From contig DUBF01000025.1 of the NCBI GenBank assembly GCA_012960465.1, positions 1 to 40,998 of the forward strand: 40,998 bases of DNA, read 5' to 3'. Positions 528 to 21,045 of the stretch are shown one piece after another (the first letter of the stretch is position 1; each line of letters starts with the position of its first letter). Origin of the DNA: Rhodospirillales bacterium. GTDB taxonomy: Bacteria > Pseudomonadota > Alphaproteobacteria > Rhodospirillales > UBA2165. The position numbers and the translations under genes were made by a program. The notes under the pieces were generated by a model, which was not told the DNA's origin, made no database searches, and saw nothing but the letters and a program-made list of their open reading frames with translations.

Positions 528-1723
528 TGCCACATCCAATGAAAAGTAAAATCTGTGTTTTAACGCTTTTGTTAGGCTGCTTACTTATGTTTAATCCCGT
601 CGGCATGGATATGTTTTTACCTGCTGTGCCAAATATAGCCCGAGGTCTTGATACTACCTCAAATCAAATTATGAATTCGATGTCGGCACTTTTTCTTGGT
701 AATGCTTTAGGCCGGCTGATCTTAGGACCTCTAGCCGATCGTTACGGTCGAAAGCCGGTAATTTTATTAACTTTGATTATTTTTACTAGTTCAGCTTTCG
801 CATCCGGTTTGGCTTCTTCAATCGAGTTTTTTATTTTTTGGCGGTTTATTCAGGGATTCGCAATTTCAGGGGGTCATGTTTTATCCCTCTCAGTCGCGAG
901 AGATTTATTTGAAAAAGAACAATTTGGTAAAATAATTGCAAATGCTACGGCGATTATGGGTCTAGCCGGCATAGTTTTCCCAATTCTTGGAGGAAAAATT
1001 GTTCAGCTTATGCCATGGCAATCAATATTCTGGGTAATGAGCATTTTTGGTCTGACGGTTTTTTCATTTGTGATATTTTCTTATAAAGAAACAATTAAAC
1101 GAAAGAATCCTCGAGCCGTTAATCCTCCGTTTCTATTGAACAACTGGTTTAAGATCATTACCAACCCGGTATTCTTGCGCCATGCTTTATGTAGTAGTTT
1201 TGCGACGGCAGGCTTTTATGCTTATGTTACGGTATCGCCGACAGTACTGCGCGAAATATTCGGTATAAGTTCTTTGGGTTACGGACTTTCTTTTGCTCTT
1301 TTGGCTCTTTTTTTTGTGATAAGCAACCTAATCGCTGGTCAGTTAGTTACACGCATTGGGCAATTTCGCCTTCTCGCGATCGGTAGCGTCATCGTTGTTT
1401 GGGGAGGGGTGATGATGTTGGGATTTTCAATAATGGAAATTGACAGGCCTTTTGCTATAATCATACCAACAGCAATCTATTTTTTTGGAATTGGCTGGGT
1501 TGTTCCACAGTCAAATGCTCTCGCTCTCCAACCATTTGAAAACTCAGCGGGAACAGCATCCGCTTTATTAGGATTTATCTCAATGATCGCGTCTGCATTT
1601 ATGGGGTTTTTACTTAGTTTTGCAGTCCATGATGATGCCACTTATCTAGCGCTCGCAATGTTAATAAGTGGTTTATCATCTTTTTTAATTTATTTCCTCC
1701 TGATTCAAAAAATACTAAAATAA
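527..1723 (+). CDS. Bcr/CflA-type multidrug efflux MFS transporter
   Basis: This 398-residue inner-membrane protein has about twelve hydrophobic segments. It carries the MFS motif A between helices 2 and 3 (GPLADRYGRKPVIL, about residue 66), a motif-B-like RFIQG near residue 107 and the PVGMDMFLPAVPNIA first-helix signature of the Bcr/CflA drug:H+ antiporters (DHA1). Family members export chloramphenicol, bicyclomycin, sulfonamides or small metabolites; the substrate cannot be read from sequence. The length is normal for the family and the frame is intact. The ATG at 527 is used because it overlaps the upstream stop; an ATG four codons later is possible. It sits between two recombinase remnants, so it is best seen as island cargo. 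No regulator gene is adjacent. Confidence 0.88.
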   Translation: MPHPMKSKICVLTLLLGCLLMFNPVGMDMFLPAVPNIARGLDTTSNQIMNSMSALFLGNALGRLILGPLADRYGRKPVILLTLIIFTSSAFASGLASSIEFFIFWRFIQGFAISGGHVLSLSVARDLFEKEQFGKIIANATAIMGLAGIVFPILGGKIVQLMPWQSIFWVMSIFGLTVFSFVIFSYKETIKRKNPRAVNPPFLLNNWFKIITNPVFLRHALCSSFATAGFYAYVTVSPTVLREIFGISSLGYGLSFALLALFFVISNLIAGQLVTRIGQFRLLAIGSVIVVWGGVMMLGFSIMEIDRPFAIIIPTAIYFFGIGWVVPQSNALALQPFENSAGTASALLGFISMIASAFMGFLLSFAVHDDATYLALAMLISGLSSFLIYFLLIQKILK

Positions 1724-1779
1724 TTTTCCCTTACTAAAGCCTTTTTTGTACATTCCCCTTCGCTGCATTTAACTCTCTC

Positions 1780-1931
1780 AGGGGTCACCATCTTCTCAAG
1801 AACTTCACATGTAACACATTGGTATCCATGCAGTTTTATTTTACGCCTGTATGGGGGTAGTACAAGTGGAAGTACAATTCAGTCCCTTATGTTTATAAAA
1901 AGAGAGATATGATTATTTTTATTTAGGGTCG
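1780..1931 (+). repeat. 152-bp repeat, plus-strand copy (att-like, tRNA-Glu 3' end plus int start)
   Basis: This segment begins with AGGGGTCACCA, the last 11 bases of the tRNA-Glu gene at 4352-4429, and runs to AGGGTCG. Its reverse complement occurs at 4211-4362 with only a few substitutions and one single-base indel, roughly 95% identity by eye. Homology stops sharply at both ends. Near its end lies ATGTTTATAAAAAGAGAGAT, which looks like the start of a DUF6538-type integrase. I read it as an attachment junction: tRNA 3' end, spacer, then the start of int. Confidence 0.85.
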
Positions 1932-2066
1932 GGGATACTTGAGACGAGGTTTGAGAAAGACCTAAATGTGATGGAAGTAGCAACAATCACAGGACACAAA
2001 GATCTTAGAATGCTACAAAGATATACACATTTAAGAGCAGAAGATTTAGCTAAGAAGCTTGGATAG
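1889..2066 (+). pseudogene. Tyrosine recombinase with internal deletion (start joined to C-terminus)
   Basis: An integrase-like start at 1889 (ATGTTTATAAAAAGAGAG) runs into sequence encoding the extreme C-terminus of a tyrosine recombinase. The clear part, about 1950-2066, reads [19 protein letters not shown] followed by [15 protein letters not shown] and a stop. [14 protein letters not shown] contains the family's GH motif and the catalytic tyrosine. Just before it, a frameshifted HDLR-like trace is visible around 1934-1946. The catalytic middle, several hundred codons, is missing. The copy is too short and too broken to be a full ORF, but the conserved tail identifies it firmly. It is inactive. 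Confidence 0.8.
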
Positions 2067-2115
2067 ACCTCTCTGCTTTCCCCTAATTGCTAGGGATTGA
2101 CCTGGATAATTAACA

Positions 2116-2493
2116 ATGAACCTTAATGAATTTAATATGTTGTGCACATCACTTTTTTCTACAACTTACAGTATTCAGTGGCGTGGTTCGCACGTTTGGA
2201 AGGTTGGAGGTAAGGTTTTTGCAATTGGTCGTTGGGACAATAAAAAAAACTCCGGTATAACTTTTAAAGTGTCCAAGATCACTTTTGAATGTTTGAAGCA
2301 CGAACCGGGAATACGACCCGCTCCTTACCTGGCATCAAGGGGGATGAGCTGGTTGCAATATTATAACGAAGAGAGAATTTCGCACAAAGACTTAAGATCG
2401 TATCTCACCGAATCCTACAGTATAGTTTCTCATAGTCTGACCAAGAAAAAACAGAAGGAACTGAACCTTAATGTCCAAAGGAGCAAATGGTGA
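2116..2493 (+). CDS. MmcQ/YjbR family protein
   Basis: This 125-residue protein matches the MmcQ/YjbR (DUF419) fold. Its landmarks are VWKVGGKVFAIGRW near residue 27, a GITFKVS strand near 48, GIRPAPYLASRGMSWLQ near 65 (the family's RPAPYL..-W motif), and a C-terminal SYSIVSHSLTKKKQKEL helix. Members are small, often DNA-binding-like proteins of poorly defined role found singly across bacteria. The length is typical and the frame intact. It follows the broken recombinase by about 50 bp and precedes a broken exonuclease gene, so it is probably an accessory gene of the island. The basic C-terminal tail is compatible with nucleic-acid contact, but that is inference. Confidence 0.8.
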   Translation: MNLNEFNMLCTSLFSTTYSIQWRGSHVWKVGGKVFAIGRWDNKKNSGITFKVSKITFECLKHEPGIRPAPYLASRGMSWLQYYNEERISHKDLRSYLTESYSIVSHSLTKKKQKELNLNVQRSKW

Positions 2494-2584
2494 ACTATGT
2501 CTGTAGGTTATAATCAGAAAATCCCCTATCCGACGGGACTATAATTCAACTGACCCTGTACCTTATTACTAGTTTCCTTTGCAT

Positions 2585-2770
2585 ATGATCAGAACATCAG
2601 TAAACGCGACTGAGAACAAATTGGACTTTTGTGCTTTAGACGTTGAAACTACCAACTTTAATATTTCAAGTATATGTCAAATAGGTATTTCAAATTTCGA
2701 TCCAGGTGAATCGCCTTGGATTAAGCACAGACCGATTTGGTCAGAATCTGCACTATTGAGTTGGTCATAA
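2585..2770 (+). pseudogene. DnaQ-like 3'-5' exonuclease, N-terminal fragment
   Basis: About 25 residues in, the frame reads FCALDVETTNFNISSICQIG, the Exo I motif (D-x-E) and following strand of DnaQ/RNase T-fold exonucleases that usually process DNA ends. After roughly 45 residues the similarity ends and the frame closes with SPWIKHRPIWSESALLSWS. The Exo II and Exo III motifs (a further Asp and H-x-x-x-D) are absent, so the product cannot be active. A TTG two codons before the ATG at 2585 could also be a start. I see no continuation of the gene in 2771-2841. It is one more truncated gene in the island. Confidence 0.6.
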
Positions 2771-2841
2771 AACTCCATTGGTGGTCCGTAAGCTGTATAA
2801 CTCATGGCTTTCCATAGACCCATATTATCCAGTTCAATTAT

Positions 2842-3498
2842 CTACAGAAGTTTCCAACCATAGACTGCTGTCACACCAAGGGTATAAGCCGCGAGAAGAA
2901 CAACATTAATTGGGTTTCCAGAAAGCTTAGGTGTTTTGATTTGTGACACATTCAATGCCGCGAGCCCCAGCCCGCTGGAATAAAGAATTACAGAAAATAT
3001 TTCTGAACTAAACAGGCCCTCAAATAGAAATATAAAAACGATTACTATGTTGTTGTTATCGATGGCCAGTCCAATATATTTGCCTCCATCAGCAAGGCCG
3101 AAAGTACTAAAATAACTCAAGCGTATCGCTGCGGCTGCAAGCATTAAAAATGCACCCGGTAGGAATATAGGCTCGAATTTTCCATAACTTAAAAGAAATA
3201 TTGCAGGCGTAATTCCATAGCTGACAATATCGATCAACACATCCAACTGACCGCCAAACAATCGGTCTGAGCCGGTTCGTCCCTTCATCCTACGTGCAAC
3301 CAGCCCATCGGCCCAGTCAAAAGCAACGGCCCATATCATTCCTATCATTGCTGCAGAGAAGACGCCTAAAATAATGAAATATATAGCAAGAAGGGTGCAA
3401 CCAAGTCCGGCAAGAGAACATACATTGGGAAGATCCCATACATAAGAAAGAATAGATTTGGGTTGCTGCTCATGCGGATTAGAGTTTTCAGCTGTCAT
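2842..3498 (-). CDS. CDP-alcohol phosphatidyltransferase (PssA-like)
   Basis: This integral membrane enzyme of 218 residues and about six helices should transfer an alcohol headgroup with release of CMP. The signature D-x-x-D-G-x-x-A-R ... G-x-x-x-D-x-x-x-D is complete: D61, D64, G65, A68, R69, G82, D86 and D90. The spacer between AR and G is 12 residues, where the common pattern has 8. The following IVSYGITPAIF resembles phosphatidylserine synthases, which read DLISFG..PA. The substrate is not determined by sequence alone. The gene is divergent from a nucleotidyltransferase gene across 183 bp, and the pair suggests a CDP-activated headgroup made by one and used by the other. It lies within the tRNA-Glu island. 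Confidence 0.8.
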   Translation of the reverse strand: MTAENSNPHEQQPKSILSYVWDLPNVCSLAGLGCTLLAIYFIILGVFSAAMIGMIWAVAFDWADGLVARRMKGRTGSDRLFGGQLDVLIDIVSYGITPAIFLLSYGKFEPIFLPGAFLMLAAAAIRLSYFSTFGLADGGKYIGLAIDNNNIVIVFIFLFEGLFSSEIFSVILYSSGLGLAALNVSQIKTPKLSGNPINVVLLAAYTLGVTAVYGWKLL

Positions 3499-3648
3499 GG
3501 CTGCTCCTACAAATAGAGGGGGGTTTCAATACTAATAAATTTCGACTATAACTAGTGTTTGGCGGTATAGGTGATTAGATGGACAAATATCCATTCCCAG
3601 TGCAGCTCGCAAGTTCGATCATTACCACACCGATTTAGCATACCATAA

Positions 3649-3660
3649 ATGATCGATCAT
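3649..3660. promoter_or_regulatory. 12-bp palindrome in the divergent promoter region
   Basis: ATGATCGATCAT is a perfect 12-bp palindrome 21 bp upstream of the cytidylyltransferase ATG, inside the 183-bp region shared with the divergent phosphatidyltransferase gene. A related CGATCATT lies at 3616-3623. The position fits an operator controlling one or both genes, but no regulator is adjacent and short palindromes occur by chance. Confidence 0.25.
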
Positions 3661-3681
3661 ACCTAAAGGTCTAAACCAATA

Positions 3682-4095
3682 ATGATTGTCTATACCGTAG
3701 GCACTTTCGATCTATTGCATGTGGGACACTTAGCTTTGCTAAGCTACTGTAAGACTTTGGGTGATGTCGTTGCAGTTGGAGTTGCGTCTGATGAGGTAGT
3801 CAACCTTTATAAGCCACATGTACCTGTTATTCCACTCAATCAACGTATGGAAATGTTGAAAGCATTGCAGTGTGTCGATATTGTGCGTCCTTACCACCAA
3901 CTTGAATATGTATCAGGTTGTAGGGAGTTGAAGGCCGATATCTTTGTGATCGGTGGAGATTGGGGCCGCGAATTGCCCAATCTGGACGTAGAAGCCTATT
4001 TAAAGGCAGAAGGAAAGCAGATTATTCAAATTCGGTATAATCCTCGAACTTCATCGACGGAAATTAAGCAAACAGTGATTGATCAGATTCACTAG
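3682..4095 (+). CDS. Glycerol-3-phosphate cytidylyltransferase-like nucleotidyltransferase
   Basis: This 137-residue soluble enzyme belongs to the TagD/cytidylyltransferase superfamily. It starts with YTVGTFDLLHVGHLALL, which contains the HxGH motif (H13-V-G-H16) that binds the nucleotide triphosphate. It ends with RTSSTEIK near residue 123, the counterpart of the RTxGISTT-type motif. IFVIGGDWG near residue 92 is also typical. The family joins CTP to an alcohol phosphate such as glycerol-3-phosphate or ethanolamine phosphate, giving CDP-alcohols. The divergent neighbour is a CDP-alcohol phosphatidyltransferase, the enzyme class that consumes such products, so an activation-transfer pair for a lipid headgroup is a reasonable inference. 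ADP- or CDP-sugar synthesis is an alternative. Confidence 0.78.
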   Translation: MIVYTVGTFDLLHVGHLALLSYCKTLGDVVAVGVASDEVVNLYKPHVPVIPLNQRMEMLKALQCVDIVRPYHQLEYVSGCRELKADIFVIGGDWGRELPNLDVEAYLKAEGKQIIQIRYNPRTSSTEIKQTVIDQIH

Positions 4096-4210
4096 ACTAG
4101 CATGTTGCATAGCTTTGAGATTGCCAAAAATTTTTCGACTTCACTATCTCCATTAAATTATCGCTGATTGTCCATCGTCAGACATCTCAAGACCCCCTCA
4201 GAAATACAAA

Positions 4211-4362
4211 CGACCCTAAATAAAATAATCATATCTCTCTTTTTATAAACATAAGGGACTGAATTGTACTTCCACATGTACTACTTTCCATACAGGCGTA
4301 AATTAAAACTGCATGGATACCAATGTGTTACATGTGAAGTTCTTGAAAAGGTGGTGACCCCT
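4211..4362 (-). repeat. 152-bp repeat, minus-strand copy next to tRNA-Glu
   Basis: This is the inverted partner of 1780-1931. Read on the minus strand it starts inside the tRNA-Glu 3' end (AGGGGTCACCA), continues through a shared spacer of about 100 bp and ends in the same integrase-start remnant (ATGTTTATAAAAAGAGAGAT, then AGGGTCG). Beyond 4211 there is no recombinase coding sequence; 4096-4210 shows nothing recognisable. It represents an element junction at the native attachment site. Confidence 0.85.
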
Positions 4363-4429
4363 ACGGGATTCGAACCCGTGTTACCAGAATGAAAATCTGG
4401 CGTCCTAGACCTAACTAGACGAAGGGGTC
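4352..4429 (-). tRNA. tRNA-Glu (anticodon TTC)
   Basis: The minus strand folds into a full cloverleaf. The acceptor GACCCCT pairs with AGGGGTC. The anticodon arm is CCAGA-TTTTCAT-TCTGG with anticodon TTC. The T arm is ACGGG-TTCGAAT-CCCGT, followed by discriminator A and an encoded CCA (4352-4354). It decodes GAA/GAG. The gene appears intact because the integrated sequence preserves its 3' end. It is the likely attB of the decayed elements to its left. Confidence 0.96.
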
Positions 4430-4523
4430 ACTAATTGAAGTTTTCAAGCGACGGTTTATACGCCTCACCAAATGAAATCAAGATTATTTTGACATGATAA
4501 GTTAAATAATTTTAAGAAAATTC

Positions 4524-5741
4524 TTAGTTTGCTTGAGATTTTGAATGCCCACGCAACTTCCACAAAGCAATTGGACCTAAAAAAGCAACAAAACCCATCG
4601 AGGCAAATGCTAGACCCCAGGAGATCGTAGTTATACCACCACCAGAAATATCCAATACCATACCAACAATCAACGGCCCTATTGCACCGCCACCAAAGCC
4701 GATAAGGGCATGGAGACCTAGGGTGGACCCACGACGCCCTTTTTCAGCAGCCAATAGTGTGCCAGCCGTCAACGCCGCTGAATCGAGCTGGATTAATCCA
4801 GCATAAAGAATAACAAAAAATACAATAATCCAATAAGGTAACGCAGCCAAAAATCCAATAAAGAGCGCTAGTATACCGGCAGAAAAAAGAAAAACCATAA
4901 CTACACGGCGACGATCATAGCGATCAGCAATTTCATTGCCGCCAATACTAGCAATCGCAGCAACACAAGCCGTCAACGTTGCTACTGTAGTAGGTATAAG
5001 TTGAATTTCACCCAAATCATGCACAGATAAGCAATAGACTAAAAAAGCGACCAACCATGAGCGCATAGCGAATAACTCCCAACTATGGACGCCATAAGCT
5101 AAAATGTAACCCATAGCCTCTCGATTACGGATTATTGGCCTAAAATCTAATAGTCTCGTTTTAGAATCAGGTTTTTGCGGTACGGTTTTATTCATAAGAC
5201 ATAAAACCAAAAAAGCTGAGGCTAATGCAGAAAATCCAGCTATTTTATGAACATTAACCCAGCCGAGTATAGTATTAACCTCCCCAGAAAAATAAAAAGA
5301 AATTGCGGTGCCAAGACTAAAACTCGCCGTATAAAAAGCTATCGCTCGAGCTGGTTTCCCCCCACTATAACGGTCCGCCAAAATCCTCAAACCAGGCATA
5401 TATGTTGCAGCCAGACCGACCCCTGCAAGCGTACGGAGTAATAATGCACCCCAAAATCCAGAGGCAAAATACGCAAATCCGAACAAGGCGGTCGCAGTAA
5501 GAGTAGCTCCACTTAAGTAAATTAATCGAGCATCAATTCGATCGGTTAAACTAACTAAAACCGGAACACTAATGGCATAACCGCCCAACAAAATTCCAGC
5601 GATCCATCCTGCTTCAGTATTTGAAAGCTGCCATATCTCAATAAATTCAGGCATAAGAGCCGGAAAAGTAAACACGCCAAGCATAGTAAGCACTTCCGCT
5701 AAACACATAATAAAAACGATATAAAATGGAGATTGGCGCAT
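4524..5741 (-). CDS. MFS transporter, CynX/NimT-like
   Basis: This 405-residue protein has about twelve hydrophobic helices. A motif-A-like SLTDRIDARLIYLSG follows helix 2 near residue 63, and a second DRYDRRRVVM loop lies near residue 273. The general organisation resembles the cyanate/nitroimidazole-type transporters, but no substrate can be assigned. It starts 9 bp after the recJ stop on the same strand, so it is probably the last gene of the alaC-hom-glpX-recJ transcript. It shows no truncation. It is not closely similar by eye to the two other MFS proteins in the window, at 527-1723 and 22803-24035. Confidence 0.82.
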   Translation of the reverse strand: MRQSPFYIVFIMCLAEVLTMLGVFTFPALMPEFIEIWQLSNTEAGWIAGILLGGYAISVPVLVSLTDRIDARLIYLSGATLTATALFGFAYFASGFWGALLLRTLAGVGLAATYMPGLRILADRYSGGKPARAIAFYTASFSLGTAISFYFSGEVNTILGWVNVHKIAGFSALASAFLVLCLMNKTVPQKPDSKTRLLDFRPIIRNREAMGYILAYGVHSWELFAMRSWLVAFLVYCLSVHDLGEIQLIPTTVATLTACVAAIASIGGNEIADRYDRRRVVMVFLFSAGILALFIGFLAALPYWIIVFFVILYAGLIQLDSAALTAGTLLAAEKGRRGSTLGLHALIGFGGGAIGPLIVGMVLDISGGGITTISWGLAFASMGFVAFLGPIALWKLRGHSKSQAN

Positions 5742-5750
5742 TTAACAGAT

Positions 5751-7559
5751 CTAATGGCTAGAGACTGGCGCAGCATCGTCAATTAAAAGCTGAGCCGAGG
5801 ATCTACCCTGCCAATTATTTTCCCTAAGCCGACCGACAACATGAAGCGGCAAGCCATTGTGATTGAGTAAAGCTTGGCCAAGGTCCGTATCTACACAACG
5901 AAACGCGATCGCTGATAACTGTTTTTTACTATCGATTCCAGTTATGAAACAACGAACATGATTAAACCCGACAATATCAGCTTTAGCTATCCTAATACCA
6001 GAAAAAGCAAGCCTCGGTTCTGCATTACCAGTCCCGAAAGGAGCCATTTTATTTAGGATCTCAACTAAGTCCATTGAAGCCCCTTCGATTGTGATTAATC
6101 CATCAACACTGAGTGTTGGCATAATTCCTTCTTCAAAAATTTGTTTACCTATCCGCTCAGAAAGAAATTTTTCAAAGACATCCAACTTTTCAGCCTCCAA
6201 AGAAAATCCAGCTGCCATGGCATGTCCACCTCCATTAGTGAGGATACCTGCTTGGCGGGCAGATATTACGCAAGCACCAAGGTCAACACCTGTAATTGAA
6301 CGACCTGAACCTGTCGCCACACCGTCCTGAACAGTCAAAATACACGCCGGCAGACCATAGCGCTCTTTCAAGCGGCTAGCGATAATACCAATAACTCCCG
6401 GGTGCCAGTTTTCACCCGCCACAAAAACAAGCGATTGAGAAATTTTCTTTTCAGCTTTTAGTTCGGCCAGTGCAAGTACTTCTTTTAAAACAATATCCTC
6501 GATTTCCCGGCGTTCTGCATTATAATTATTTAGCTTTTGAGCTATATTGATAGCTTCCTCTGAACTTTCGGTAGAAAGCAACTTAGCACCTAGATTGGAT
6601 TCGCCTACTCGTCCACCAGCGTTAACGCGCGGACCCATTAAAAATCCCAAATGATAAGTTGATGGCGCTTCATCCATGCCAGCAACATCGGCTAAAGCCG
6701 ACAATCCTTTATTCCGTCGCTTGGCCATCACTTTCAAACCTTGGACAACTAAGGCTCTGTTGACCCCAGTTAACGGCACCATATCGGCAACAGTGCCAAG
6801 CGCAACAATATCCAATAAGTTCATCAAATTTGGTTCTTGAAAAGATAAATTTTTTAAGAAGAATCCATCTTTTCGCAAGGCCCTATTTATTGCAACAATT
6901 AGCAGAAAAGAAACACCTACGGCTGCTAATTGAGTATGTCTACTTTCTTCGTCAAGTCGGTTGGGATTAATCACCGCCACGGCATGCGGGAGGATTACCT
7001 CCGCAATATGGTGATCAACGATAATAACATCTAACCCAATATCCTCCGCAAAAGACAAGGGCTCAAAAGCAGTTGTACCGCAGTCAACAGTAATAATGAC
7101 TGATGCGCCATCACTCTTTAATTTCTCAAAAGCGGCTATATTAGGTCCATACCCTTCTGCAATCCTATCAGGTATATATATTTGGTAGTTTACTCCAATG
7201 GATCCGAAAAACCGTGCGAGCAATGCCGATGAGGTCGCGCCGTCCACATCGTAATCACCAAATATAGCTATTTTCTCATTTCCAGTAATCGCCTTGATGA
7301 TACGAACAACACCGACATCCATATCCAGCAAATGTGCGGGGTCAGGCAACAATGAACTTAGCTTTGGGTCAAGGAAATCGTCTACGAGCTCTGCAGATAC
7401 GCCCCTCGCACTTAAAAAACGTCCAATTATATCTGGGATCTGAAATTGCTGAGATATTGCAAGCGCTTGCCGATCATTAACTTGTCTTTCAAGCCATCGT
7501 TTTCCGCTAAAAGACCGCTCGACATCAAGAAAATTTTTATCCGATAAAGTCTTTGTCAT
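5751..7559 (-). CDS. recJ: Single-stranded-DNA-specific exonuclease RecJ
   Basis: RecJ degrades single-stranded DNA 5' to 3' in recombinational and mismatch repair. The 602-residue protein has the DHH-superfamily motifs: IFGDYDVDGATSSALLARF near residue 98 (DxD), IITVDCGTTA near 155, and IIVDHHIAE near 178 (DHH). A DHHA1 part follows with GPRVNAGGRVGESNLGAKLL and, near residue 433, TNGGGHAMAAGFSLE, then a C-terminal OB-fold-like region. The length is usual for alphaproteobacterial RecJ. It starts 22 bp after glpX in the minus-strand operon. No key residue appears to be missing. It acts in the cytoplasm on Mn2+/Mg2+. Confidence 0.96.
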   Translation of the reverse strand: MTKTLSDKNFLDVERSFSGKRWLERQVNDRQALAISQQFQIPDIIGRFLSARGVSAELVDDFLDPKLSSLLPDPAHLLDMDVGVVRIIKAITGNEKIAIFGDYDVDGATSSALLARFFGSIGVNYQIYIPDRIAEGYGPNIAAFEKLKSDGASVIITVDCGTTAFEPLSFAEDIGLDVIIVDHHIAEVILPHAVAVINPNRLDEESRHTQLAAVGVSFLLIVAINRALRKDGFFLKNLSFQEPNLMNLLDIVALGTVADMVPLTGVNRALVVQGLKVMAKRRNKGLSALADVAGMDEAPSTYHLGFLMGPRVNAGGRVGESNLGAKLLSTESSEEAINIAQKLNNYNAERREIEDIVLKEVLALAELKAEKKISQSLVFVAGENWHPGVIGIIASRLKERYGLPACILTVQDGVATGSGRSITGVDLGACVISARQAGILTNGGGHAMAAGFSLEAEKLDVFEKFLSERIGKQIFEEGIMPTLSVDGLITIEGASMDLVEILNKMAPFGTGNAEPRLAFSGIRIAKADIVGFNHVRCFITGIDSKKQLSAIAFRCVDTDLGQALLNHNGLPLHVVGRLRENNWQGRSSAQLLIDDAAPVSSH

Positions 7560-7581
7560 TTATTTATATATCTGCGGGTTT

Positions 7582-8556
7582 TCATCCAGTCTCACGGCTA
7601 AAATTATGCTCAGCTTCAATATATCTAACGGTTCCGGATTTAGATCGCATAATGAGAGAATGTGTCATCGCACCACCTTTAAAACGACGCACTCCTTTCA
7701 ACATAGATCCCATAGTAACCCCTGTGGCCGCAAACATCGTCTCACCACCAGCGAGTTCCATAAGGTTGTATTTTTTATCGAACTCCGTAATACCAAGACG
7801 CGAAGCTCTCCCGCGTTCATCGTCATTACGAAAAACCAAGCGACCTTGCATTTGACCGCCAATACATCGGAGTGCGGCAGCTGCCAGCACACCCTCAGGC
7901 GCTCCGCCCGTACCCATATAAATATCAACTCCAGCTTCTTCGGTAGACGTTGCTATAACACCGCTAACATCACCATCCCCAATTAGCATAATTCGGGCTC
8001 CACTCTCCCGACTTTTAGCTATAATTTCTTCATGCCGAGGACGATCAAGCACACAACTAACCAAATCACCAATTTCAACATCCTTGGCTTTAGCTAAATT
8101 TTTAAGATTATTCGCGACAGTTTCATCAAGGTCAACAACACCTTCTGGCAGTCCATTACCAACCGCTATTTTATCCATATAAGTATCAGGCGCATTCAAA
8201 AAACCGCCTTCCTCAGCCATCGCTATAACTGCCAAAGCATTTGGACCGCCTTTCGCAGTGATTGTTGTCCCTTCAAGCGGGTCCAAGGCAATGTCGATCT
8301 TCGGTCCATTTCCAGTGCCAACTTCTTCACCGATATATAACATTGGTGCTTCGTCACGCTCGCCCTCGCCGATACGTACAGTGCCCTGTATATGAAGGCT
8401 ATTTAGGGCGCTCCGCATTGCATCAACTGCAGCCTGGTCCGCAGCTTTTTCATCACCTCGCCCCATCAAGCGTGAAGCAGCGATTGCGGCTGCTTCTGTC
8501 ACACGTACTGCCTCAAGTGCTAAATTTCGATCCATTTTAGAAGTGTACTCACCCAT
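7582..8556 (-). CDS. glpX: Class II fructose-1,6-bisphosphatase GlpX
   Basis: GlpX hydrolyses fructose-1,6-bisphosphate to fructose-6-phosphate in gluconeogenesis. The 324-residue sequence has the class II hallmarks: GRGDEKAADQAAVDAMR near residue 33, GTVRIGEGERDEAPMLYIGE near 58, and IALDPLEGTTITAKG near 89 (the DPLEGT metal site). IYMGTGGAPEGVLAAAALRC lies near residue 192. The length matches the family. Between hom (36 bp upstream) and recJ (22 bp downstream), it occupies the position commonly seen in Rhodospirillales genomes. An AAAAAAGGTAAAAATT-like sequence just before the ATG is a plausible ribosome-binding site. Confidence 0.96.
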   Translation of the reverse strand: MGEYTSKMDRNLALEAVRVTEAAAIAASRLMGRGDEKAADQAAVDAMRSALNSLHIQGTVRIGEGERDEAPMLYIGEEVGTGNGPKIDIALDPLEGTTITAKGGPNALAVIAMAEEGGFLNAPDTYMDKIAVGNGLPEGVVDLDETVANNLKNLAKAKDVEIGDLVSCVLDRPRHEEIIAKSRESGARIMLIGDGDVSGVIATSTEEAGVDIYMGTGGAPEGVLAAAALRCIGGQMQGRLVFRNDDERGRASRLGITEFDKKYNLMELAGGETMFAATGVTMGSMLKGVRRFKGGAMTHSLIMRSKSGTVRYIEAEHNFSRETG

Positions 8557-8592
8557 AATTTTTACCTTTTTTAATTTATATTTCTTTAGCCA

Positions 8593-9888
8593 TTAAAAGG
8601 ACTCTATTCGGATCATGCACGGTGGTTCCACCACAGCCTCATTTTTTTCTATCAAACCTAACGTCGCCAACATCGAATATTCGGCCGTTGAGTGAGTTGT
8701 TAAAACCACCGGAACGGCCTCGTTCTGAGATCTCCCACGTTGCAATACTGCCTCCATAGAGACATTATTATCCTTAAGAGCACTAGCGATGGTAGCAAAA
8801 ACGCCAGGCTTATCTAACACCATAAAACGAACATAGTAGGACCCAACATGCTCGGAGATCGGCACATTTTTTAATTTCTTTAACTTTATCGCTGGTATTG
8901 TAAATGTGTTTAACTTTTTATCCCTTGCGATATCAATTATGTCCGCGACCACGGCAGAAGCTGTCGGCCCTTCACCCGCCCCACGTCCTTCATACATGGT
9001 TGTGCCTACAAAATCACCTTCTACGATCACTGCATTAAAAACATCTTCAATGTGAGCAATAGGGGCATCAATCGGGACCATGCAGGGGTGGACGCGTTGT
9101 TCAATACCAAATTCAGTCTGGCGCGAAATACCAAGCAATTTAATTCGGTAGCCAAGCTCATCTGCAAATTCTATATCAAGCGGCGAAATCCGACTAATAC
9201 CCTCAATATGCACAGCTTTAAAATTCACTTCACAACCAAAAGCTAGACTAGTTAGAATTGCCAGCTTGTGAGCGGTATCCACACCATCGATATCAAGAGC
9301 AGGGTCTGCTTCAGCGTAGCCCAGATCTTGTGCTTCTTTGAGCATCAAACCGAATTCTTTACGAGTTCGGCGCATTTCACTAAGTATATAATTGCAGGTA
9401 CCATTCAAAATACCAAAAATACGCAATACTTTATTACCAACCAAACCCTCCCTAAGAGCTTTTACGATCGGAACGCCACCCGCAACAGCAGCTTCAAAGG
9501 CAATGATAACGTTAGCAATCTCTGCGGACCGAGCAAGTTCAGTACCATGGTGAGCGATTAGGGCTTTATTCGCTGTAACCACATGCTTACCATTAGCTAT
9601 TGCCGTTTCTACCAATTCTTTTGCTATACCATCTTCGCCGCCGATTAGTTCCACAACCACGTCAACGTTTTTATCAATAGCAAGCTCGAGCGGATCAGGG
9701 CTCCATTTTAAATCAGCTAGATTAAAGCCACGGTCTTTAGACGGATCACGTGCAGAAACAGCTGTTATAGCTATATCACGACCACTTCTTAACGAAACTA
9801 GACTAGCTTGCTGCCTAAGTAGTTTAACCACACCTGCGCCAACAGTTCCGAGACCAGCCACACCAATTTTTAAAGGCGAATTACTCAA
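8593..9888 (-). CDS. hom: Homoserine dehydrogenase
   Basis: The enzyme reduces aspartate semialdehyde to homoserine, the branch to threonine and methionine. The N-terminal Rossmann segment IGVAGLGTVGAGVVKLL (about residue 8) binds NAD(P)H. The catalytic region includes VTANKALIAHHG near 104, GGVPIVKALREGL near 137 and ILNGTCNYILSEM near 159. AEADPALDIDGVDTAHKLAI near 193 is the substrate-site signature. The last 80 or so residues (YYVRFMVLDKPGVFATIASA onward) form an ACT domain, as expected for threonine feedback. It overlaps the alaC stop by 4 bp, so the two are translationally coupled. Confidence 0.97.
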   Translation of the reverse strand: MSNSPLKIGVAGLGTVGAGVVKLLRQQASLVSLRSGRDIAITAVSARDPSKDRGFNLADLKWSPDPLELAIDKNVDVVVELIGGEDGIAKELVETAIANGKHVVTANKALIAHHGTELARSAEIANVIIAFEAAVAGGVPIVKALREGLVGNKVLRIFGILNGTCNYILSEMRRTRKEFGLMLKEAQDLGYAEADPALDIDGVDTAHKLAILTSLAFGCEVNFKAVHIEGISRISPLDIEFADELGYRIKLLGISRQTEFGIEQRVHPCMVPIDAPIAHIEDVFNAVIVEGDFVGTTMYEGRGAGEGPTASAVVADIIDIARDKKLNTFTIPAIKLKKLKNVPISEHVGSYYVRFMVLDKPGVFATIASALKDNNVSMEAVLQRGRSQNEAVPVVLTTHSTAEYSMLATLGLIEKNEAVVEPPCMIRIESF

Positions 9889-16486: not shown

Positions 16487-17368
16487 ATGTTTATTCAAAC
16501 TGAAGCAATGCCTGATCAATCCCGCATGAAATTTTTCCCAGGTGAGACTGTTCTAACAGCAGGGTCTGCTGAATTTCTTAATGGAGAATCTGCAAAACGC
16601 TCTCCATTAGCAACACGCCTCTTTGAAATTGAGGGTGTTAATACCGTAATGATGTATACCGATTTTATAGCCGTCACCAAAGAAGAGGAATTTGACTGGC
16701 AACTAATGAAGCCATTGATTTTAGGCGCTATAATGGATCATTATACTGCTGGTGATGCAATGATCATTAACGTGGAAGAATCTGAAGCCGACACTGAATT
16801 GGAATCAGCACTCGACGCTCTCTTTGAGCCGCGCGAAGAAGATACAGAATCCGTTAATAAAATCAAAGAGTTAATGGCAGACCGCGTTACGCCAGCTGCA
16901 GAACAAATGGGCGGTGACGTTGTGTACAAAGGTTTTGTTGACGGAATAATTTATGTCGAGTTTGTTGGCCCGACAGAAGGCTTAACTGGTGGCATGACAA
17001 ATATTTTTAGTCATTACATTCCGGAAGTCCGTGCGGTTAAAGACTATCACGATGCAATACCTAAACCAGGTCTTGATACTCCCGACGGCCGCGCCATTCT
17101 CCAGGTCCTTGACGAGCGTATCAATCCATCGATCGCCAGTCATGGAGGTCATATTTCCCTAATAGATGTTAAAGATGACAGGGCTTATGTTCGGCTTGAA
17201 GGTGGATGCCAGGGATGTGGCATGGCAGATGTTACTTTAAAACAAGGTGTTGAAGTTGAGATTAAAAATGTTGTTCCAAATATTATTGCCGTACTTGATG
17301 TAACGGACCACGCTGAAGGATCAAACCCGTACTATTCACCAGGTAAGGGCGGAGCACCAGCTAAATAA
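16487..17368 (+). CDS. Three-domain Nfu-type iron-sulfur carrier
   Basis: Residues 1-95 match the Nfu_N domain of alphaproteobacterial NifU-like proteins (MFIQTEAMPDQ start, LATRLFEIEGVNTVMMYTDF). Residues 120-185 look like the NifU domain that normally follows, but its Cys-x-x-Cys is gone: the site reads FVGPTEGLTGGMTN. A third part, residues 200-280, is a second NifU domain with an intact C241-x-x-C244 (GGCQGCGMADVTLKQG). It ends in EGSNPYY, more like the C-terminal domain of gammaproteobacterial NfuA. Alphaproteobacterial Nfu proteins are usually about 185 residues; this one has 293. Nfu proteins deliver Fe-S clusters to target enzymes. The next gene, 4 bp away, is a radical SAM protein, so a dedicated supply role is plausible. 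Confidence 0.88.
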   Translation: MFIQTEAMPDQSRMKFFPGETVLTAGSAEFLNGESAKRSPLATRLFEIEGVNTVMMYTDFIAVTKEEEFDWQLMKPLILGAIMDHYTAGDAMIINVEESEADTELESALDALFEPREEDTESVNKIKELMADRVTPAAEQMGGDVVYKGFVDGIIYVEFVGPTEGLTGGMTNIFSHYIPEVRAVKDYHDAIPKPGLDTPDGRAILQVLDERINPSIASHGGHISLIDVKDDRAYVRLEGGCQGCGMADVTLKQGVEVEIKNVVPNIIAVLDVTDHAEGSNPYYSPGKGGAPAK

Positions 17369-17372
17369 ATCA

Positions 17373-18764
17373 ATGCAGGTTCTTCTTATTTCGACCTACG
17401 ACCTTGGTCATCAGCCGTTTAGCTTAGCTTCACCCGCAGCAAAACTCACCGCGGTTGGTGCAACAGTCACTTGCAATGATCTAGCAGTAGAAAGTATCAA
17501 GGAAGGTGCTGTTGAGAAAGCAGATATAATTGGACTTTATTTACAAATGCATACAGCAACTAGATTATCGGTTGCCCTACTACCCCGTCTGAAAGAACTA
17601 AATCCAGTTGCTCATATAGTATTCTATGGATTATACGCGCCATTAAACGCCGAGTATTTAAAAACGATTGGCGGAGATAGCTTTATAGGCGGTGAATTTG
17701 AAGATGGGTTAGTTCAAATTTATAATAATTTAATCGATGGAAAAGCGCCCATACTTCTTAATCTAACTTCAACAGAAAATCAAAAATTTAATCAACCCTT
17801 GCGCGATGGGTTACCCAATTTGAGTAATTATGCTCATTTAAACGTTGGTGATGGATCAACAAAAATAGTCGGCTATACGGAAGCTAGCCGTGGTTGTAAA
17901 CATAAATGCCGTCATTGCCCCGTCGTACCAGTTTATCAGGGGCGTTTTCGGGTTATAAGTAGCAATTTGGTTATAGCAGACATTCGCCAGCAAATTGCGC
18001 AGGGTGCTGAACATATCAGCTTTGGTGATCCTGATTTTCTAAACGGGCCTACTCATGCCATAAAAATCATTTCAGCATTACATAATGAATTTCCCCAAAT
18101 TAGTTACGATGCAACCATAAAAGTTGAACATCTTCTAAAACATAAAAAACTCCTTCCAAAACTAAAAGAAACAGGGTGCTTATTCATTACGACAGCGGTA
18201 GAATCTGTTGAGGAAGATATTCTGCAGATTTTAGATAAAGGTCATACCCATGATGACTTCATACAAGTAGCTAAAAATAATAAAGAAATTGGTATTCCGC
18301 TTTCGCCAACATTTGTACCGTTTACACCTTGGACAACTAAACGAGGGTTTCTTCGATTACTGGATACAATTGCAGAACTTGGATTAATTGAGAACGTCGC
18401 TCCCATCCAACTCGCAATCCGATTGCTTATTCCGAACAAATCCTATCTGCTAGATATTCCAGACATTCAGCCTCATCTATTAGGTTATGATCAGGAGGCC
18501 TTAAGTCACCGTTGGCGTAACCTTGATGAAAGCGTTGAAGATCTGTGCAGGGAAATACAAAAAATTGTCGAAACTGGAGCTGCAGATGGTATTTTGCGAG
18601 TTGAAACTTTCAAAACCATTTACGCTACAACGCGCAGAGCCTGTGGGCTAAATGACGATACCTTTCCATATCAACTTCCATTAACAAATATCACCGTACC
18701 CAGCATGAGTGAACCTTGGTTTTGCTGCGCAGAACCAACCCAAGAACAACTTTCACGTCTATAA
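17373..18764 (+). CDS. CCAEP-tail radical SAM protein
   Basis: This 463-residue protein has an N-terminal B12-binding-like Rossmann region (1-120) that lacks the canonical DxHxxG motif. A radical SAM domain follows with C175-x3-C179-x2-C182 (GCKHKCRHC), which binds the [4Fe-4S] cluster that cleaves SAM. SFGDPDFLN near 215 and FITTAVESVEEDIL near 273 are typical core strands. The C-terminus reads PWFCCAEPTQEQLSRL; C451-C452-A-E-P is the tail that, from memory, defines the CUAEP/CCAEP-tail radical SAM family, some members of which carry selenocysteine at the second position. Here both are Cys codons (TGC TGC). Its reaction is unknown to me. It lies between an Nfu carrier (4 bp) and an ATP-grasp gene (1-bp overlap). 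Confidence 0.88.
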   Translation: MQVLLISTYDLGHQPFSLASPAAKLTAVGATVTCNDLAVESIKEGAVEKADIIGLYLQMHTATRLSVALLPRLKELNPVAHIVFYGLYAPLNAEYLKTIGGDSFIGGEFEDGLVQIYNNLIDGKAPILLNLTSTENQKFNQPLRDGLPNLSNYAHLNVGDGSTKIVGYTEASRGCKHKCRHCPVVPVYQGRFRVISSNLVIADIRQQIAQGAEHISFGDPDFLNGPTHAIKIISALHNEFPQISYDATIKVEHLLKHKKLLPKLKETGCLFITTAVESVEEDILQILDKGHTHDDFIQVAKNNKEIGIPLSPTFVPFTPWTTKRGFLRLLDTIAELGLIENVAPIQLAIRLLIPNKSYLLDIPDIQPHLLGYDQEALSHRWRNLDESVEDLCREIQKIVETGAADGILRVETFKTIYATTRRACGLNDDTFPYQLPLTNITVPSMSEPWFCCAEPTQEQLSRL

Positions 18765-20011
18765 TGACGCGTCTCTTACTATTAATACCATCGACGTCCT
18801 ATCGAGTAAGTGATTTTGTTACAGCAGCACATCGATTAGGTATTGACGTAACTGTTGGCTCTAACCAACGTCAAGTCTTAGAACCCCTTAATGAAGCCGG
18901 TTCGATAACCATTGAATTTTCCAATCCAGATGTTGCTGTAGAAGAAATTAAAAAGTTTCATAATTCTTTTCCCATAATAGCAATCGTTGCAGTTGACGAT
19001 GAAACAGGAACCATCGCTTCCAAAGCATCACAAAAATTAGGTTTCAAATGCAATAGTCCTGAAGCCGTTATGGCAACAGGTAACAAGCTTTTATTGCGCC
19101 AGGCACTGAGTAAAGCTGACCTCTCTTTAACAAAATATAACACCCTTAGATTAGATGACGATCCCATCCGAATAGCTAGGAAAATAGATTTTCCATGTGT
19201 CCTCAAGCCCCTTAACCTCGCAGCCAGTCAAGGCGTAATCCGTGCCAACACACGACAAGAGTTTGTTAGAGCATTTGAACGGATTAAATTACTTTTATTA
19301 AATATTGAGAAAAACACTCAAAAAGTAATTCTACCAAAAATTTTAATTGAGGATTATATTGAAGGTGAGGAAGTCGCGCTCGAGGGATTAATGATTGACG
19401 GCAAACTGACAGTGTTAGCGCTTTTTGACAAACCCGATCCATTAGAAGGTCCATACTTCGAAGAAACGATTTATATCACACCCTCTCAAAAACCCCTTGA
19501 GACTCAGGAATCAATTAAGCGTATGGCCGAACAAGCAGCCAGCGCAATCGGACTTGTAGAAGGTCCTGTACATATAGAACTTCGAGTACAACCGAGCGGG
19601 CAATCAAATAATAAAACGGGGCCATGGGTAATTGATATGGCTGCACGCTCAATTGGAGGTCTATGTTCCCGCAGTTTGCAATTTGATGAAGATTTAACGC
19701 TTGAAGATATAATTTTACGTCATGCGATAAATGAGCCAATAGAAGTAAATCGGGAGGCTAAAGCATCTGGGGTAATGATGATCCCTATTCCAAAAGCTGG
19801 CACCCTAGAACGTATTGATGGCACCCTGGAAGCACAAGCTGTTAACGGAATTACCAATATTACGATTAGTATGACGATAGGTGAAAAATTAATACCCTTA
19901 CCTGATGGAAACAAATATTTAGGTTTCATTTTCGCAAAAGCTGATCAACCAGAAGACGTCGAGACAGCTCTTCGTTCAGCGCACTCGAAACTTAGTTTTA
20001 GGATCAGCTAA
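18764..20011 (+). CDS. ATP-grasp domain protein
   Basis: The 415-residue protein has a carbamoyl-phosphate-synthase-like ATP-grasp fold. It starts with a PreATP-grasp Rossmann part ([19 protein letters not shown]). [20 protein letters not shown] near residue 144 is the ATP-binding strand-loop. [20 protein letters not shown] near 191 and [20 protein letters not shown] near 289 supply the Mg-binding region. Family members ligate a carboxylate to an amine or thiol through an acyl-phosphate. The ATG is chosen because TAATG overlaps the radical SAM stop; a longer frame from 18716 would run inside that gene. The substrate is unknown. Coupling to the radical SAM gene implies one pathway. Its 3' end overlaps the convergent ltaE stop by 4 bp. 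Confidence 0.86.
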
Positions 20012-21045
20012 CTGCAGATTTTTGCGAATATATCTGCAGCCCGATTAATACCGGCTTCATCCACATCTAAGTGCGTAACTGCTCGCATACTATCAGGACC
20101 CATGGCACCAATTCGTACACCATTCAATAATAATTGCTCCGAAATCTCAGACGCCGATACCTTTAAATTAGCAACATTAATTATCAAAATGTTAGTTTCC
20201 ACCGTCATTGGATCAATTTTTATACCAGGAATTTGGGCCAATCTATTAGCTAAATTTTTAGCATTTAAGTGGTCTACCTCCAAACGTTCCACATTATGAT
20301 CAAGCGCGTATAATCCAGCTGCCGCTAAAATTCCCGATTGCCTCATTGATCCGCCAAGACGTTGTTTCCAAGGCCATGCCTGGTCAATAAAACCCTTGCT
20401 ACCCGCAATCACACCACCAACCGGGCACCCCAGTCCTTTTGAAAGATCAATCCACACGGTATCGACGGTCGCCGCATAGTCCGCCGCCGACACTCCACTA
20501 GCGACCACCGCATTCAGTAACCGGGCACCATCCATATGCGTGACAAGATTATGTTCAACGGATAGTGCCTGAAATGATTTCAAAACGTCCAGAGGCCATA
20601 TGCTGCCGCCGCCAAGATTAGCAGTTTGCTCAACAGAAATCATCTTCGATGACGGCGCATGCCTAAAACCAGCGCGTATCGCATCTCTTGCCTGATCAAG
20701 ACTAAATTGCCCCCTCAGACCCTCCAATGGCCTAATCATCGCACGGGCAATAACTGCGGCTCCACCAGCTTCAAAATTAATAATATGAGCAGTTTTATCA
20801 GCAATTATCTCATCGCCCGGTTGACACTGAACGGCAATGGCTATTTGGTTACACATAGTGCCTGATGGAACGAATAATGCGGCCTCCTTTCCAAGGAGGC
20901 TTGCAACACGTTCCTGAAGTTCAATAGTCGTAGGATCCTCGCCTGCCTGCTCATCTCCCATTTCAGCAGCAATCATTGCATTAAGCATTGGCTTGCTAGG
21001 TCTCGTTTTCGTATCGCTGAATAAGTCTATAGTTGGAATGCTCAT
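20008..21045 (-). CDS. ltaE: Low-specificity L-threonine aldolase
   Basis: This PLP enzyme of 345 residues cleaves L-threonine or L-allo-threonine to glycine and acetaldehyde. The signature parts are [19 protein letters not shown] at the start, [19 protein letters not shown] near residue 31, [12 protein letters not shown] near 58, [11 protein letters not shown] near 168 and the lysine loop [14 protein letters not shown] near 197. Length and motifs are typical. It runs tail-to-tail into the ATP-grasp gene with a 4-bp overlap of coding ends. It might supply glycine, but a role with that operon is not indicated by orientation. Upstream (21046-21247) is an AT-rich gap with nothing recognised. Confidence 0.93.

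Follow-up and report, generated by a model that had tools for sequence, protein, structure and literature searches.

What does a radical S-adenosylmethionine (SAM) enzyme with a C-terminal Cys-Cys-Ala-Glu-Pro (CCAEP) tail make, and with which partner does it act? This question is raised by a locus within a 40,998-nucleotide stretch of DNA from a marine Rhodospirillales bacterium (assembly GCA_012960465.1, contig DUBF01000025.1), which as a whole is called the window here. The enzyme belongs to the family NF040546 (rSAM_CUAEP), which NCBIfam already names, together with its selenocysteine (Sec), and to which it assigns no reaction. Our analysis identifies this enzyme and the ATP-grasp enzyme encoded by the adjoining gene as near-obligate, functionally coupled partners, for which a tentative two-enzyme pathway is put forward below. 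The genes, domains and junctions concerned are the following, with positions in the window.

16487-17368, + strand: Nfu-type iron-sulfur (Fe-S) carrier, 293 amino acids, PF08712 and PF01106 over cut-off
17373-18764, + strand: CCAEP-tail radical SAM enzyme, 463 amino acids, NF040546 at 581.2 bits
17895-17918, + strand: codons for the [4Fe-4S]-binding motif C175-x3-C179-x2-C182, which shows no variation in alignments A1 and A2
18723-18737, + strand: codons for C451-C452-A-E-P in the tail, unchanged in all 53 rows of A2
18762-18766, + strand: TAATG, in which the stop codon of the radical SAM gene overlaps the start codon of the ATP-grasp gene, read from the sequence
18764-20011, + strand: L-amino-acid-ligase-type ATP-grasp enzyme, 415 amino acids, ATP-grasp_4 and LAL_C2 over cut-off
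19778-20005, + strand: ATP-grasp enzyme residues 339-414, forming its LAL_C2 domain, PF18603 at 61.1 bits (cut-off 29.4)

A preliminary description of this DNA, made from its letters alone, had reported three tightly spaced genes, and the open reading frames (ORFs) bear this out, with the Nfu gene lying outside the interval 17373-20011 given there: the Nfu and radical SAM genes are separated by 4 bp (TAA-ATCA-ATG), and the radical SAM and ATP-grasp genes overlap by 1 bp. The radical SAM protein ends in ...SEPWFCCAEPTQEQLSRL, and its tail pair is encoded by TGC TGC.

Membership in NF040546 is indicated both by score, since the full-length match of 581.2 bits exceeds the cut-off of 500, and by CCAEP at residues 451-455. 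The second-best NCBIfam model is NF040542, that of ArsL, at 278.7 bits, and all remaining listed families score below 50; similarly, the CUAEP member of T. roseum reaches 315 bits with the ArsL model, and the families that follow stay below 60. The protein combines an N-terminal Rossmann-type domain, as found in cobalamin-type radical SAM enzymes, with a radical SAM barrel (PF04055, 51.5 bits, cut-off 29.5), in which C175, C179 and C182 form the CX3CX2C motif, and a C-terminal tail. In alignment A2, which comprises the window and 52 of the 80 related loci described below (Sec written as Cys), C451-C452-A-E-P is invariant, and the tail is not a chance feature. The AlphaFold model is of high quality (mean predicted local distance difference test, pLDDT, 91.0; predicted template-modelling score 0.90; tail pLDDT 81-84), and it folds like cobalamin-type radical SAM enzymes and related proteins, most closely AprD4, OxsB, MgmA and MiaB; among structures in the PDB, AprD4 (6fd2) is nearest (Z 26.8, root-mean-square deviation 3.8, 403 aligned residues).

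Members of NF040546 are scarce in the phylum of the window, where the window's own genome was the only one of 398 evenly drawn genomes to carry the gene; in the other 397, neither the radical SAM nor the ATP-grasp gene was found. The family is more frequent among the window's genome and 198 relatives (23 of 199 genomes, including all nine of the window's genus) and in a second phylum, sampled around an acidobacterial member (25 of 149). For comparisons of neighbourhood, the best 80 of at least 582 relatives among named genome contigs were used, an uneven sample of the closest ones; these loci span Acidobacteriota, Pseudomonadota, Chloroflexota, Methylomirabilota, Latescibacterota, Calditrichota, Actinomycetota and others.

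The pairing with the ATP-grasp gene is general. Within the 199 genomes, the ATP-grasp gene occurs in 23 of 23 that have the radical SAM gene versus 3 of 176 that lack it (Fisher 3e-27, kinship uncorrected), and in the second phylum in 24 of 25 versus 2 of 124 (2.5e-24, kinship likewise uncorrected), where the radical SAM match of the sole miss, G738, is partial. Summed over the two surveys, 47 genomes carry both genes. At 48 of the 80 loci, the ATP-grasp gene lies within 7 kb of the radical SAM gene (38 directly downstream, one directly upstream, nine elsewhere nearby), and a profile search of the remaining 32 genomes revealed a single copy elsewhere in 27, giving 75 of 80. Among cultured bacteria, Rhodovibrio sodomensis DSM 9895 has both genes. 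Ten of the 24 pairs in the second phylum are on different contigs, in two of which (G693, G767) one of the genes is at a contig end; since the radical SAM contig also ends early in 4 of the 32 genomes, some of the unlinked partners may be split neighbours. Because the association holds in two phyla and for unlinked pairs, mere hitch-hiking of one gene with the other is unlikely. The preliminary description would have been undermined had homologues rarely neighboured an ATP-grasp gene, which is the opposite of what was found.

The partner protein has the fold of L-amino-acid ligases, and ligase activity is predicted for it. All three Pfam matches lie above their cut-offs (ATP-grasp_4 110 bits, LAL_C2 61.1, ATPgrasp_N 42), phmmer aligns it with the ligase BL00235 (3vot) at E 3.5e-34, and its structural model (pLDDT 90.5) is closest to the same structure (Z 40.6, root-mean-square deviation 3.0, 394 aligned residues; next Z 33.0). 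It shares the ATP-grasp fold and LAL_C2 with BL00235 and BacD/YwfE, at only 25% and about 20% identity, respectively, in structural alignments; unlike these ligases, its 38 aligned homologues form with it a single clade tied to the radical SAM gene.

A clue to the chemistry, and in our analysis the main one, is the kinship with ArsL, which the preliminary description had overlooked. Passages of PMC8552651 describe how ArsL makes hydroxyarsinothricin (AST-OH) from As(III) in E. coli, for which its authors predict a transfer of the 3-amino-3-carboxypropyl group of SAM. By sequence comparison, NF040546 is a sister family of ArsL: CX3CX2C and many polar invariants are common to CUAEP and ArsL proteins, and in the tail the CC of ArsL's RCCLKC is matched by C451 and C452. 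The likeness has clear bounds, as the CC pair is followed by A-E-P in the window protein and by L-K-C in ArsL, so that the RCCLKC tail is lacking, and the score of 278.7 bits falls short of the NF040542 cut-off of 450; nor is the gene set in an arsenic operon. An ATP-grasp gene also occurs in four (Alicyclobacillus, Priestia, Pantoea and Klebsiella, not P. amygdali) of the five ArsL-type plasmid clusters examined among 16 such plasmid records, at these positions.

L130, 2436-3668: ATP-grasp gene of an ArsL (RCCLKC-tail) cluster
L151, 2686-3909: ATP-grasp gene of an ArsL (RCCLKC-tail) cluster
L152, 7461-8777: ATP-grasp gene of an ArsL (RCCLKC-tail) cluster
L153, 7709-8773: ATP-grasp gene of an ArsL (RCCLKC-tail) cluster

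These genes may point to dipeptides of the arsinothricin type; in the open-licence PMC literature, no paper was found that combines ATP-grasp with arsinothricin. Three of the four clusters also hold a major facilitator superfamily transporter and arsM. In a quick tree, 39 ATP-grasp rows of CUAEP loci (the window and 38 of 42 other full-length matches) and the four ArsL rows form separate groups (approximate likelihood-ratio support, SH-aLRT, 99 for each) with other ATP-grasp genes between them, a result that carries a long-branch warning and an outgroup of nine plasmid genes only. A single origin for the ATP-grasp genes of both kinds of cluster is thus unsupported, and the separate clades suggest that the pairing arose twice, once in each sister family.

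The tail pair itself varies. Across the 80 loci it is Cys-Cys at 37, Cys-UGA at 38, UGA-Cys at two (L069, L082) and UGA-UGA, that is Sec-Sec or UUAEP, at three (L075, L099, L121), with A-E-P always next; the last five loci all belong to Chloroflexota, L099 and L121 more precisely to Anaerolineae. UGA is hence present in the tail at 43 of 80 loci, in agreement with the earlier statement that the tail marks a family of no assigned reaction, some of whose members use Sec. The tandem in-frame UGA codons, with the loop motif downstream, are found here.

L075, 7544-7613: tandem in-frame UGA with downstream loop motif
L099, 9351-9420: tandem in-frame UGA with downstream loop motif
L121, 9366-9435: tandem in-frame UGA with downstream loop motif

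By its in-frame UGA, a hairpin resembling the Sec insertion sequence (SECIS) and tRNA-Sec, the family has the marks of a selenoprotein family, while the window member itself uses Cys. The loop CAG[GT]T lies downstream of the motif at 43 of 43 UGA loci versus 9 of 37 CC loci, and a SECIS-like hairpin with this loop and a stem of at least four pairs at 38 of 43 versus 3 of 37 (30 of 43 versus 4 of 37 in an earlier pattern count); the rules for loop and stem were set after folds had been viewed, and the contrast is partly confounded by codons because the same stretch is protein-coding. Folding energy did not reveal a SECIS: eight UGA loci spanned z -2.4 to +1.0, and the lowest z (-3.1) was that of the window's own CC stretch, which forms a different hairpin. 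L089, L107 and L115, the CC loci that have both loop and stem, belong to a clade whose closest relative carries UGA, and they look like recent Sec-to-Cys changes. Among 43 genomes of the 80 loci scanned for tRNA-Sec, with L109 left out, a match above 59 bits occurs in 20 of 22 that have a UGA tail versus 9 of 21 that have a CC tail (Fisher 0.001), at a threshold picked by eye at the gap between 59.9 and 55.0 bits because the Rfam cut-off, exceeded by 38 of the 43 genomes, did not discriminate; L097 and L126 are the UGA-tail genomes lacking a match above this gap. As the window's genome, despite its two-Cys tail, encodes a tRNA-Sec of 77.5 bits (G000:C123:6803-6893), like 9 of the 21 CC-tail genomes, a Cys tail does not imply loss of Sec. 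In a tree built without the tail, at least 12 switches between Sec-containing and Cys tails are required.

How might these properties be combined in one pathway? We tentatively favour, at a likelihood somewhat short of even, a two-enzyme route modelled on ArsL. The radical SAM enzyme would cleave SAM in the way predicted for ArsL, mobilising the 3-amino-3-carboxypropyl group, and a soft acceptor atom X would be bound by the vicinal thiol or selenol pair of the C-terminal tail; transfer of the group onto X would yield an amino acid of the form 2-amino-4-(X)-butanoate. In the second step, the ATP-grasp enzyme would activate a carboxylate as an acyl phosphate and couple the amino acid to another amine, and the product would resemble a dipeptide. 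X could be arsenic or another soft element, the neighbouring genes lending arsenic no support, and the adjoining Nfu would act as the general Fe-S carrier of the cell. A pair of soft-atom ligands would allow CC, CU, UC and UU alike while A-E-P stays fixed, and an amino-acid ligase fits most simply beside an enzyme whose expected product is an amino acid. The preference of the preliminary description for a small substrate over a ribosomal peptide is in line with this scheme, given that ArsL kinship and the L-amino-acid-ligase fold both fit a small amino acid. A ligase that masks a toxic glutamate-like amino acid inside a peptide would resemble the situation in bialaphos and bacilysin.

Several observations weigh against this two-enzyme route. 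The window protein is only about 29-33% identical to five ArsL-type proteins over about 400 residues, and three His residues that never vary among the 53 rows of A2 (H60, H181 and H291) are unconserved in those five, from which it follows that the substrate differs at least partly from that of ArsL, in the acceptor or its surroundings. The nearest solved folds catalyse other chemistry. BLAST searches near the 80 loci, some on short contigs, with the ars proteins of ArsL clusters as queries returned arsR-like matches at two loci and, besides these, a single weak arsM-like one. As to the partner, a profile search found no such ATP-grasp in the genome assembly at 5 of the 80 loci, and none occurs in the annotated neighbourhood (about 9 kb) of the CUAEP member of T. 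roseum. Conversely, the ATP-grasp gene is present in 5 of the 300 genomes lacking the radical SAM gene, among them G438, G476 and G497 (87%, 95% and 67% complete), which keep an Nfu-ATP-grasp arrangement and whose genomes yielded no radical SAM gene of this family.

The alternative that survives best, possible if rather doubtful, views the Cys/Sec tail as a redox or hydrogen-atom-donor arm: ordinary 5'-deoxyadenosyl radical chemistry would act on an amino acid, and the ATP-grasp enzyme would ligate the product. Comparable redox arms are the C-terminal Cys-Sec tail of thioredoxin reductase and the Cys pairs of ribonucleotide reductase. Cys/Sec swaps at both tail positions fit such an arm equally, and the enzymes of nearest fold, namely the diol dehydratase AprD4, OxsB, MgmA and MiaB, are not 3-amino-3-carboxypropyl transferases; the sequence, however, is much nearer to ArsL (279 bits versus below 50 for the families of these folds), with which the CC tail pair is shared. 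A PDB sequence search at E 0.001 brought no match for ArsL, with AprD4 alone coming up.

An arsenic route, in which As(III) would be the acceptor and the two enzymes would produce an arsenic amino acid of the arsinothricin type together with its dipeptide, is unlikely. The sister relation to ArsL and the ATP-grasp genes of ArsL-type clusters speak for it, but ars genes are almost absent from the 80 loci, where arsN1 and arsQ gave no BLAST match at all, and the missing RCCLKC tail and the three divergent His residues argue in the same direction.

Even less probable, indeed very unlikely, is a separate task for the ATP-grasp enzyme, for example with Nfu or on a common amino acid, in which case the radical SAM enzyme would act on its product or be an optional add-on. 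Such a task would account for the three Nfu-ATP-grasp genomes named above and for the two of 124 genomes of the second phylum with the ATP-grasp gene alone; yet these five stand against the 47 with both genes, and G438, G497 and G696 among them are incomplete or small, the last with 1.2 Mb.

Most improbable of all is the three-gene pathway with an Nfu dedicated to its clusters, which has in its favour that Nfu adjoins the radical SAM gene at 18 of the 80 loci, lies near it at one more (21 of 80 under looser clustering) and, in its extended form, is over-represented in genomes having the pair, and against it that the genome yielded no second NifU-domain protein and that Nfu is kept in 16 genomes lacking the radical SAM gene.

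Of the compact pathway envisaged in the preliminary description, the pairing of radical SAM and ATP-grasp enzymes thus stands, and the claim that it is fed by its own Nfu does not. The window Nfu consists of Nfu_N, a degenerate middle NifU-like copy without CxxC, and a C-terminal NifU domain; no other PF01106 protein was found in the genome, which is 98.8% complete, the middle copy giving a weak second match in the same ORF, and at 92 bits this Nfu remains below the cut-off of 269 of the NfuA equivalog TIGR03341. Extended Nfu proteins (about 275-300 amino acids) occur in 39 of the 199 genomes, among them every one of the 23 that carry the radical SAM gene; the other 16 lack it. The match in G456 is partial. 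Eight of the 16 belong to the window's own family and keep Nfu in its setting without the pair: in five, a threonine-aldolase-like or glycosylase gene directly follows Nfu, and in the other three a glycosylase lies within about 0.7 kb. A dedicated Nfu was for these reasons rejected, and since the gene stays in place in relatives without the pair, the pair looks like a module that is present or absent beside a housekeeping Nfu gene. At L131, L132 and L133, the loci of G438, G476 and G497, the Nfu gene adjoins the ATP-grasp gene.

Taken beyond the window, the favoured route would amount to a widespread and undescribed pathway, in Acidobacteriota, Pseudomonadota, Chloroflexota and others, in which an organo-element amino acid is built on a thiol or selenol tail, Sec-Sec included, and capped as a dipeptide by a dedicated ATP-grasp ligase, the element being other than arsenic, or arsenic outside ars operons; this wider claim may hold, though we regard it as doubtful. 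The family gains a reaction hypothesis and a defined partner, and its function becomes testable with two proteins. If the parallel with ArsL is true, there would be a second natural system that forms bonds between carbon and a soft element, at a great distance from arsenic operons, and in its tail Cys, Sec and Sec-Sec could be compared at one site. Relative to the NCBIfam definition of NF040546, the near-obligate ATP-grasp partner and the UC and UU tails are additions of the present analysis. Passages of a selenoproteome review from 2026 (PMC13188914) discuss the SAO and UXX-star selenoproteins of Haft and co-workers, whose motifs are CU or double Sec and in some cases have been suggested to act as metal ligands; in these passages none is named as the CUAEP radical SAM family, and term searches of the main text gave neither NF040546 nor CUAEP. 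In the open-licence PMC literature no paper with CUAEP or NF040546 was found, and the family may be treated in print beyond that set.

The remaining neighbours contribute little to the pathway. Converging on the ATP-grasp gene is the following gene.

20008-21045, - strand: GntG-type pyridoxal-phosphate (PLP)-dependent aldolase, 347 bits (cut-off 230)

Threonine-aldolase-like, glycosyltransferase and Lrp-type neighbours were considered as parts of the pathway and left out; the aldolase gene lies beside Nfu in five of the eight family members without the pair (in four by direct contact), and the glycosyltransferase gene upstream of Nfu in three of the eight. A Pfam scan of 18 further neighbour proteins showed no recurring theme apart from those named here. 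A long ORF at 11 of the 80 loci resembles an aconitase by appearance alone, and one upstream ORF, that of L070, is an aconitase by Pfam. Genes of the DUF169 (COG2043) cluster occur at 8 of 80 loci and were checked by Pfam in four (L078, L084, L102, L118); at L102 the gene separates the radical SAM gene from the ATP-grasp gene, and two of the four, L084 and L118, are among the five genomes in which no ATP-grasp partner was found. The ATP-grasp protein of L078, from Catenulispora rubra DSM 44948, falls outside the 39 CUAEP rows and is fused to a GNAT domain, for which no resistance role is claimed because its likeness to ArsN1 is weak (best E 6e-4). At 1334-9724 of this locus, genes for a MerB-like protein (the single case of one beside the radical SAM gene), a CCAEP radical SAM enzyme, DUF169, the ATP-grasp-GNAT fusion and a PLP decarboxylase follow one another in series, and this row may be a small biosynthetic cluster.

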